This document shows positions 3,381-29,870 of a DNA stretch of 34,278 nt, piece after piece. The stretch is from contig WFUO01000012.1 of assembly GCA_015484945.1 (NCBI GenBank), positions 1-34,278 on the forward strand. The letters run 5' to 3'. Each line of letters starts with the position of its first letter. Position 1 is the stretch's first letter. Source of the DNA: Gammaproteobacteria bacterium (GTDB taxonomy: Bacteria > Pseudomonadota > Gammaproteobacteria > WFUO01). The notes beneath the pieces are model-generated. The model was given only the letters and a program-made list of their open reading frames with translations, made no database searches and had not been told where the DNA came from. The position numbers were made by a program, and so were the translations under genes.

Positions 3381-4022
3381 ATGGGTTCCGCCGCCTTTTC
3401 ACCTGTCACCCTGGCCATGACCAGCGTGATAGAGACCGCCTTCAATGCGGCGCTGTCACGCGATCCGGGCACACGCCAGCGCATGCAATCGCTGGCCGGC
3501 AAGGTCATCCACCTGCGACTGACGGGTATCGATCGCTCACTGTACATCATCCCCGGGCATCGCTGTCTGGTGCTCTCCACCTGCGAGGCGCAGCCTGACG
3601 TGACCATTACCGGTACACCGCTGGCCTTCATGCGCATGCAGCTTGCGCGCCGGCGCGAGGACAGCCTGTTCGCGGGTGATGTGACCATCGACGGTGATAC
3701 CGCCACCGGGCATGCCTTCCAGAACATACTCGCGCAACTCGATCTGGACTGGGAAGAGCAGCTCTCCCGGCTGACGGGCGACGTGCTTGCTCACCAGGTC
3801 GGCAATCTGGCGCGCGGACTGGGCCGCTGGGGCCGGCATGTGGCAGAGACACTGCTTGAAGATACCGGCGACTGGCTGCAGGAAGAAAGCCGCCTGGTCC
3901 CATGCGCCATTGAAATCGAACATTTCGTGAATGCCGTCGATACCCTGCGCGCCGATACCGCCAGGCTGGAGGCACGCATCCGACGCCTGTGCCGCCGGGC
4001 CGGAGTCGAGTCATGCGCCTGA
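3381..4022 (+). CDS. ubiJ: Ubiquinone biosynthesis accessory factor UbiJ (SCP2 domain)
   Basis: 213 aa SCP2-like protein located between ubiE and ubiB; (LEE)[14 protein letters not shown] motif and C-terminal coiled region. Confidence 0.85.
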
Positions 4023-5662
4023 TCCGTCCGTCGCAGTTTGTGCATCTGCTGCGCATCAACCGTGTCATGGTGCGGCATCGGCTGGATGAAATCATCCTGT
4101 CGATACATTTCATGCGTCCATTCCGTATCCTGTTCGCGTTGCTGCCATGGCGCTGGTTGCGCCGCCGTCATGCCACCTCGCGCGCGGTGCGTATCCGGCG
4201 TACGCTCGAGGATCTGGGCCCGATCTTCGTCAAGTTCGGCCAGATCCTCTCCACCCGCCGCGACCTGCTGCCGGACGACATCGCCGATGAACTGGCACGC
4301 TTGCAGGACCGGGTGGCGCCATTCCCCGGTGACGAGGCGCGCGCCATCATCGAGCGCGCCTATCGCAAGCCGGTGGAGGAATTGTTCGCCGAATTCGACG
4401 CCACGCCGATCGCCTCGGCGTCCATCGCCCAGGTGCATGCCGCGCGTCTGCACAACGGCGACGAGGTCGTGGTCAAGGTCGTGCGGCCAGGCATCATGCC
4501 ACAGATCGAGCGTGACATCGCGCTGCTGTACTATCTTGCCGGGCTGGCCGAACGCTACTGGGCCGACGGCAGGCGCCTGCGTCCGACCGAGGTCGTGGCC
4601 GAATTCGATCGTGTGATTCATGACGAACTGGATCTGATCCGTGAAGCCTCAAACGCCGCGCAACTGCGGCGCAACTTCGAAGGATCGTCTCGCCTGTACG
4701 TTCCACGTGTGTACTGGGACTGGGCACGCCGCGATGTAATGGTCATGGAGCGCATCTACGGCACCCCGATCGGCGATATCGACACGCTCCGCGCCCAGGG
4801 CATCGACATGAAAAGACTGGCCGAGAACGGCGTCGATATATTCTACACCCAGGTGTTTCGTCACAACTTCTTTCACGCCGACATGCATCCAGGCAATATC
4901 TTCGTCTCACCCGAGGGCCGCTACATTGCCGTCGATTTCGGCATCATGGGCACCCTGAGCCCCGAGGACAAACGGTATCTGGCGGAGAACTTCATCGCCT
5001 TCTTCAACCGCGACTACCAGCGTGTCGCCGAGCTGCATGTCGAATCCGGCTGGGTACCGCCGCAGACACGCGTTGACGAGTTCGAATCGGCCATACGCGC
5101 CGTGTGCGAACCCAACTTCAATAAACCGCTCAAGGATATTTCGTTCGGACACGTGCTGCTGCGCCTGTTCCAGACCGCGCGCCGTTTCGACATGGTCGTG
5201 CAGCCGCAGCTGGTGCTGCTGCAAAAGACGCTGCTCAACATCGAAGGACTCGGCCGTCAGCTGTACCCTGACCTGGACCTGTGGCAGACGGCCAAGCCGT
5301 TTCTGGAAGAATGGATGAAGGAACAAACAGGCCCCCGCGCCCTGCTGTCACGCCTGCGCAGGAACCTGCCGGCATGGTCCGAAAAGCTGCCCGAGCTACC
5401 GGGCCTGATGCACGATGTGCTGCAAAAGGCGCGCGACGGCAAGTTGGAGATACATTACCGCAGCGATGAACTCGCCCGTCTGCGTGACGACCTGTGCCAC
5501 CAGCACCGGCGCACGCTACTCGGCATCACCGGCGGCTCGCTGATCATCAGCGCCTCGTTGGCTGCCCTGACAACAGGTACGGCGGGCATCCCGCTGGCCA
5601 CCTGGCTGCTCGGCGTTCCCGGCCTGGGCTGTCTGATCGCCGCACTGCGTCCGCAGCAGTAG
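4013..5662 (+). CDS. ubiB: Ubiquinone biosynthesis protein UbiB (ABC1/ADCK kinase-like)
   Basis: [70 protein letters not shown]; overlaps ubiJ end by 10 nt. Confidence 0.96.
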
Positions 5663-5720
5663 CACACATCAACTGCGCAACATCACCGGGTCCAAGGGGC
5701 ACACGGATGCAGATCGCTAG

Positions 5721-5974
5721 CCCGGATATTGCATCAGCATCCCGAGAGCCGGCGGAATTCGCAGCCGCTGTGGTGCCGGTTTGGAATGAAATCCATAGCC
5801 TTCGCTATGGATTGAATGAAAACCCGGCCACAGCGAGCGAGAAACCGCCGGAATCGGGATAGAACCGCACGGTGAACAAATGGTTACCGGTGACAATCTG
5901 CAGTCTTTAGCCATTTTTTACGCTGTTTCGGTCGGTTATGTCCTCAGTACGGTTCGGCTGGTGCAATATTCGGG
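5721..5974 (+). mobile_element. MITE-like non-coding element, copy 1
   Basis: Terminal inverted repeats CCCGGATATTGCATCAGC and reverse complement of GCTGGTGCAATATTCGGG (16/18 match); flanked on both sides by CTAG (5717-5720, 5975-5978); internal core shared with the inverted copy at 29589-29805. Lies between the convergent ends of ubiB and a DJ-1 gene. Confidence 0.75.
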
Positions 5975-6004
5975 CTAGGTACGGCAAGCCATCACCCGAA
6001 ACGA

Positions 6005-6556
6005 TCAGCCACGCAGCAACCCGGCTTCGACCTCATCGCGCTTGCCTCTGCCCGCGAGCAGTTCGATCAGTGTCAGCGCAAAGTCCATCGCGGTGCCCGG
6101 CCCGCGCGAGGTGACGACCTTGCCGTCCGTAACCACCGGCTGGTCACAATACTGCATGCCGGGCACATCCATGACATCCAGGGTGCCGGGATAGCTGGTC
6201 GCCTTGCGCCCTTCCAGCACACCGGCACTGGCCAGCACCCGGGGTGCGGCACAGATCGCGGCGGTGTAACGGCCTTCACCTGCCATCTTCATGACCAGAT
6301 CAATGATCCGCGGATCCTGGTTCAGGTAGTCTGCGCCGGGCAGGCCACCGGGTAATACGACCATGTCGTAGTCCTTCGACAGCGCCGCATCCAGATCGGT
6401 ATCGGGCACCAGCACCACGCCACGCGAGGCGGTCACCGGGCCGGGCTGCAACCCGGCCGTGGTCACCTCGATGCCGGCCCGGCGCAGCAGGTCGATGATG
6501 GTTACGGCTTCGAGCTCCTCACATGACTGGGCGAGGGGAACGAGAACACTGGGCAT
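6005..6556 (-). CDS. DJ-1/PfpI (YajL/ThiJ-like) family protein
   Basis: MPSVLVPLAQSCEELEAVTIIDLLRRAGIEVTTAGL, VLPGGLPGADYL, AAICAAPRVLASAGVL nucleophile-elbow Cys, DGKVVTSRGPGTAMDFAL. Confidence 0.92.
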   Translation of the reverse strand: MPSVLVPLAQSCEELEAVTIIDLLRRAGIEVTTAGLQPGPVTASRGVVLVPDTDLDAALSKDYDMVVLPGGLPGADYLNQDPRIIDLVMKMAGEGRYTAAICAAPRVLASAGVLEGRKATSYPGTLDVMDVPGMQYCDQPVVTDGKVVTSRGPGTAMDFALTLIELLAGRGKRDEVEAGLLRG

Positions 6557-6640
6557 GACGGTTTCCTCCTCTAATGTTACGGCTATCACACCAACAGCCT
6601 GTTCAGGAATATGCGCTTTTTACCCGTCATGGACGGCGTG

Positions 6641-29544: not shown

Positions 29545-29588
29545 GCAAGGCACCGACAATGAAATCTGACGCGATGGCAAAACTTTAA

Positions 29589-29805
29589 CCCGGATATTCC
29601 ATCAGCCGAACCGAACGGGTGGGGTAAGCCACTGAGTCAACATGTAAAATGGGCAATATACACCGGTTGTTACTTATTCGTCGTTCGGTTCTATCCCGAT
29701 GCTGGCGGTTTCTCGCTCGCTGTGGCTGGGTTTTCAACGCTCCATATCAGCGCCGCAGCGGTTGCGAATTCCGCCGCCTCCCGGGAGGCTGATGCAATAG
29801 CAGGG
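29589..29805 (-). mobile_element. MITE-like non-coding element, copy 2 (inverted relative to copy 1)
   Basis: Ends CCCGGATATTCCATCAGC and (reverse complement of the right end) CCCTGCTATTGCATCAGC; flanked by TTAA on both sides (29585-29588, 29806-29809); reverse complement shares a core GAAAACCCrGCCACAGCGAGCGAGAAACCGCCrGmATCGGGATAGAACCGmACG with copy 1. Confidence 0.75.
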
Positions 29806-29870
29806 TTAATTATAGTCTATTCAACAGGAATAGCGGCCGGCGCAGCCGGATCTAAAGGCATTGTACCTGT

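Follow-up and report, generated by a model that had tools for sequence, protein, structure and literature searches.

The 262-bp element at 5717-5978 (+) of the window (the whole 34,278-nucleotide stretch of DNA that was analysed), counted with both copies of its target duplication, is very probably a MITE moved in trans by DDE transposases of the IS1380 family, with a body selected as a fold that has a role on one strand. An IS1380-family transposase would recognise the CCCG-type ends, insert at YTAR and duplicate the target, as the identity of the ends and the duplications indicate. Selection would keep the body as a fold comprising a base stem made of the terminal inverted repeats (TIRs), hairpin A of 122 nt, in which two base pairs separate two internal loops rich in G.A, and a short arm with the motif AACAAACTGT. 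Most likely it is one strand that acts, either as RNA or as a hairpin of single-stranded DNA, and the fold may aid the persistence of the element or its pick-up by a host protein or the transposase. The common view of MITEs is of IS remnants in decay whose interior is unimportant. Here the interior shows covariation and strand-specific conservation across one class, in 27 genera or more, and the ends track different IS1380 subgroups, and selection of a non-coding MITE body for its own function becomes a directly testable question.

The element and its copies in the host genome

The initial annotation had described 5721-5974 as a MITE-like copy with terminal inverted repeats, CTAG on both sides and no convincing ORF, lying between convergent ubiB and DJ-1 genes. 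Repeats and flanks are present exactly as described, the left and right 18-mers being inverse at 16/18 positions; there is no coding ORF within the element, and the assignments PF03109 (+) and PF01965 (-) agree with the named neighbours. The interior between the two 18-bp repeats is 218 bp. The parts of the element, its neighbours and a second copy in the window are listed below; covariance model R1 was built from a sequence-only alignment of 15 hairpins.

3989-5662, + strand: flanking ubiB-type ABC1 kinase gene (PF03109), stop 54 bp before the element
5717-5720, no strand: left target site duplication CTAG (YTAR), from the sequence
5721-5738, + strand: left TIR CCCGGATATTGCATCAGC, IS1380 type, from the sequence and comparison with IS1380 ends
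5739-5860, + strand: hairpin A, 122 nt, conserved fold, internal loops GGA/GA and GA/GA, from R1 and covariation
5861-5956, + strand: region B, second arm, AT-richer and less conserved than hairpin A, from fold and motif
5862-5867, + strand: 5' side GAACCG of the stem closing region B, partner CGGTTC directly before the right TIR, from the fold
5875-5884, + strand: AACAAATGGT, the version in this element of the conserved single-strand motif with consensus AACAAACTGT, from motif search
5957-5974, - strand: right TIR, GCTGGTGCAATATTCGGG on + and CCCGAATATTGCACCAGC read on -, from the sequence
5975-5978, no strand: right target site duplication CTAG, from the sequence
6005-6589, - strand: flanking DJ-1/PfpI gene (PF01965), convergent, stop 26 bp past the element
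29585-29809, - strand: second window copy, 225 bp, TTAA/TTAA as duplication, hairpin A with deleted tip, from similarity and R1

A search of the host draft genome (1.8 Mb in 65 contigs, 76% complete) gave 20 matches at about 15 places, representing full or partial copies. Eight of these align over 258-262 bp, and in every complete copy the similarity stops at the inverted repeats, so the ends first proposed coincide with those of the repeat family; multiple copies, TIRs, a target duplication and the lack of an ORF all bear out the MITE-like label. The terminal motif YTARCCCGNATATTKCAYCAGC occurs 27 times in the 1.8-Mb draft with up to two mismatches, against 0 for the reversed control, and the copy number is far beyond chance. 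Length variants include two deletion derivatives, C15 (199 bp) and the second window copy (225 bp), and C41, which an insertion lengthens to 310 bp. The second window copy sits downstream of an HlyD-like gene and is matched by R1 at 29693-29787 with 62.6 bits. A 140-bp host copy, L011 (G000:C64:14568-14707), consists of the two ends and region B only, and a 153-bp form at locus L141 of genome G056 resembles it; such B-only derivatives may be able to move by themselves.

IS1380-type ends and YTAR target sites

The initial annotation had tentatively suggested a transposase of the IS630/Tc1 type, and the only complete IS elements found to have these ends instead encode IS1380-family transposases. 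When 85,462 genomes were scanned for TAGCCCGGATATTGCAYCAGC, nine stretches matched. The 1,579-bp Halomonas halmophila contig NZ_BJOC01000077.1 is one complete IS with ends TAGCCCGGATATTGCACCAG and CTGGTGCAATATTCGGGCTAG, its 21-bp ends agreeing with that of the MITE at 20-21/21 positions, and its single 438-aa ORF is an IS1380-family transposase (PF13701, E=2.5e-155; NF033539, E=2.2e-112); relatives of this IS are held by Halomonas almeriensis. Three plasmid IS1380 elements, located by similarity, have ends of the same layout: ISPa33 with TTAG followed by CCCGGATTTCTCATGAG and TTAG at the far side, ISMaq4 with CTAG followed by CCCGGATTTCTCATAGG and CTAG at the far side, and ISPosp7 with CTAG followed by CCCGCATATTTCACGC and CTAG at the far side. 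Ends of the same kind with a CTAA/CTAA duplication bound a Marinobacter IS1380 element, and an IS1380 element in genome G294 has ATTATTCA ends. When the MITE interior was compared with the Halomonas IS, the one IS used for this comparison, only the ends matched. No PF13701 match was found in the host draft, which at 76% completeness is weak evidence of absence, and no IS1380 transposase above the family cut-off was found in several MITE-bearing genomes, including the closed genome G124. Weak PF13701 matches in G124 belong to a different DDE transposase, two copies of which were scanned and lack a pair of these ends. From the shared ends, the element is most likely non-autonomous and mobilised in trans by IS1380 transposases. 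IS1380 transposases are the outgroup to the PiggyBac transposons of animals, most of which have TTAA as their duplication and many of which start with CCC (PMC10813416).

The target duplication had been given as TA or YTAR, alternatives that CTAG alone cannot separate because it is palindromic. Host copies C35 (TTAG/TTAG) and C64 (CTAA/CTAA) and the second window copy (TTAA/TTAA) directly repeat four bases. Over all loci, TTAG/TTAG is seen at L007 and L237 and CTAA/CTAA at L164, L229 and L011, alongside TTAA/TTAA cases. Among 89 elements, namely those of 104 examined R1 matches that have a clear TIR pair, 45 carry identical 4-bp duplications (31 CTAG, 7 TTAA, 2 TTAG, 2 CTAA and a few others). 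YTAR is upheld by the non-palindromic cases, and the TA-only version falls. A MITE of an IS630/Tc1-mariner transposase with a TA duplication is accordingly very improbable: TA is indeed central in every intact YTAR site, but the duplication reaches beyond it, the base adjoining CCC at the terminus follows the target (TTAA versus CTAG sites), and the complete elements sharing these ends encode IS1380 enzymes.

Neighbouring genes, called by longest-ORF heuristics, were predicted on both sides of 83 elements, and in 23 of these the stop codon of a neighbour lies inside the YTAR duplication. This rate of 28% compares with about 18% expected (55 YTAR stops versus 251 intergenic YTAR sites), a mild excess over YTAR availability. 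Every YTAR target includes TAA or TAG and its duplication re-creates the stop, so that an insertion of this kind does not damage the protein. The neighbours checked as examples are full-length: farnesyl diphosphate synthase (298/299 of the model), ISC ferredoxin (109/110) and release factor 2 (353/353). Exact insertions at natural stop codons were seen at L167, L166, L161, L227 and others. At L167, by the longest-ORF calls, one CTAG was apparently the stop of both convergent neighbours before it was duplicated by insertion. With co-directional neighbours, 35 elements have the fold on the strand antisense to these genes and 16 on the sense strand, and a read-through mRNA would therefore usually be without the fold.

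Conservation of the hairpin A fold

The fold of the window copy has an energy of -134.7 kcal/mol (z = -9.7); its ends pair as a base stem that carries the large hairpin A and the second arm B. Elements extracted from at least five families are mostly about 250-264 bp and share this plan. In most of them hairpin A measures 121-122 nt and begins at a distance of 22 nt from the first YTAR base, and it folds identically in elements of barely alignable sequence. In the 89-element set the hairpin starts 22 or 23 nt from YTAR in 81 cases, and element length has a median of 260 bp with a 5-95% range of 246-276 bp.

Covariation was examined in 15 hairpins aligned by plain MAFFT from sequence only, with no structure used. 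Compensatory change occurred in 20/45 pairs, a result reached by 0/500 shuffles, and 92.4% of cells were paired against 80.4% when shuffled; sliding the partner strand by one column reduced pairing to 37%. A larger alignment of 74 elements gave compensatory change in 42/45 pairs, 88.4% of cells paired and 635 double-changed cells. A tree-aware null, in which substitutions were randomly re-placed on a FastTree tree in 200 runs, gave 63.4±2.1% paired, 28±2.8 pairs and 124±26 cells, with maxima of 70.2% and 36 pairs. Because the 74-element alignment was fitted to structure, the 15-element alignment is the cleaner evidence.

Several features of the fold are not symmetrical between strands. A GGA/GA internal loop, strand-specific, is present in 67/74 hairpins. 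Two more base pairs inwards lies the second loop; it reads GA/GA in 41 hairpins, and in 21 all of its bases are paired (GC/GC, GA/TC or TC/GA), suggesting a stack of tandem G.A pairs at these sites. At the tip most hairpins have ATAGC or GTAGC, then four bases and the complement; the window copy reads ATAGC-NNNN-GCTAT. R1 scores the window hairpin at 139 bits on the + strand versus 43 bits on the - strand. Downstream of hairpin A, mostly 14-15 nt past its end, the motif AACAAACTGT is found with up to two mismatches in 32/89 elements, where shuffles lead one to expect 1.6. The conserved loops, this motif and the strand-specific scores argue against simple palindrome filler.

A rival reading is that the element is an ordinary decayed MITE, its hairpins being palindromic filler kept symmetrical by replication slippage or hairpin-templated repair and its fold unselected. 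Hairpin-templated repair can itself yield paired changes, which counts against a selected fold, and it does happen: the tips of L205 (CCCTCAACCCATAGCTTAAGCTATGGGTTGAGGG) and L212 in genome G267 are now perfect palindromes. Stable stem-loops are moreover common to MITEs in general according to a review of bacterial MITEs (PMC10969869). Repair would, however, erase mismatched loops, yet the asymmetric GGA/GA was kept at the frequency given above, as were the length of hairpin A and its 22-23-nt offset across many families and the single-strand motif at its fixed place. We consider filler unlikely on these grounds. A mobile host regulatory RNA device, for example a 3'-end mRNA stabiliser or a bidirectional terminator between convergent genes, would suit the many copies at gene ends, those placed exactly on a predicted stop codon and the convergent setting of the window copy. 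The use of stop codons is only mildly above what YTAR availability offers, however; the fold strand has sense orientation to its neighbours less often than antisense, there is no conserved gene association and only one weak terminator-like match was obtained, which makes such a device quite unlikely. With that single match and no sigma-70-like promoter in 5600-6100, a terminator or promoter role was dropped. An integron attC or a retron-like cassette was likewise dropped, as we know of no matching motif or enzyme.

Known systems, distribution and probable exchange of ends

The element resembles several known systems in part. With the IS1380 elements (ISPa33, ISMaq4, ISPosp7 and the Halomonas IS) it shares the 4-bp YTAR duplication and CCCG-type inverted repeats, but it has no transposase gene, spans 246-276 bp rather than about 1.6 kb, and has an interior with no similarity found to that of the IS compared, from Halomonas. 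Bacterial MITEs such as QMITE of Coxiella are also short and gene-less, with TIRs, direct repeats and predicted stable stem-loop transcripts (PMC10969869); here, in contrast, the body fold covaries across many families and is decoupled from the type of end. The review makes no mention of IS1380. REP/BIME palindromes are likewise repeated intergenic hairpins with strand-specific features, whereas our element is much larger and has the TIRs and target duplications of a DDE transposase. Rfam mobile-element RNAs such as HEARO also place a conserved, RNA-like folded segment within a mobile element, but ours has no nuclease gene and matches no Rfam family above the gathering score, giving chance-level matches only. 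A search of literature on IS1380 and MITEs, partial in its sources and covering few subscription journals, revealed no IS1380 MITE family with a conserved fold, and the six end sequences were not mentioned in literature of the same coverage. The closest earlier concept is the ordinary MITE, from which the conserved, end-independent fold is the distinguishing feature. Our results suggest a superfamily of MITEs in which a fold of RNA or of single-strand DNA is under selection, and the conserved hairpin core suggests that the repeat is more than transposon debris.

R1 can find the family in raw genomes. It matches 32/369 sampled genomes of the class, in 27 genera and often with many copies per genome, while a DNA search of the 369 genomes detected relatives in 9 besides that of the host. 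In a phylum-wide draw of 399 genomes, R1 matched nothing but the host genome and, outside the class, three genera belonging to a single family; because these matches are so few, false positives of R1 are rare. Searched with the DNA of the window element, the 55 nearest genomes available gave no match, and plasmids gave a single weak match of 25 bases. Diverged copies had no match in plasmids or phages and the core pattern had none in viral contigs, and from these nearly empty searches the family looks chromosomal.

A YTAR/CCCG end pair surrounds 89/104 examined R1 matches; the remainder include contig-end cases, decayed copies and hairpins of genome G290 without such ends. The same body carries ATATTGCA, ATATTTCA, ATTTCTCA, ATATCTCA and ATTATTCA ends, and these types parallel the ends of different IS1380 elements. 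In the host genome, the copy C35:162759 has differing ends, ATTTCTCA and ATTTCTTA. Judged by its end types, the body would have passed between IS1380 subgroups. Tentatively, and a little short of an even chance, the elements could form a widespread selfish class that hands down no cargo other than a structured RNA or a hairpin of ssDNA; this body would persist in many families of the class by swapping the ends of IS1380 subgroups, its fold would give mobility or tolerance, and it would be a new family of non-coding RNAs or DNA hairpins.

The G290 hairpins (L173, L223, L284 and L285) have hairpin A with the GGA/GA loop, lack IS1380 ends and lie within longer palindromes. Some are flanked by GGGTCGCTG.CC.GGGG arms, and one pair is arranged in tandem. 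As a module, the hairpin may exist apart from IS1380 ends. Genome G057 (Chromatiales bacterium bin2008) holds 46 IS1380-type end matches, many of them paired about 230 bp apart, with ATATTTCACCCGG ends; the elements examined there fold alike yet give no match to R1, so the family is wider than R1 shows. At L132 (G124:C1:2342621-2342838), IS1380-type ends surround other cargo, a long hairpin with the repeat GTAGGAGCGGCCTCCAGGCCGCGA.
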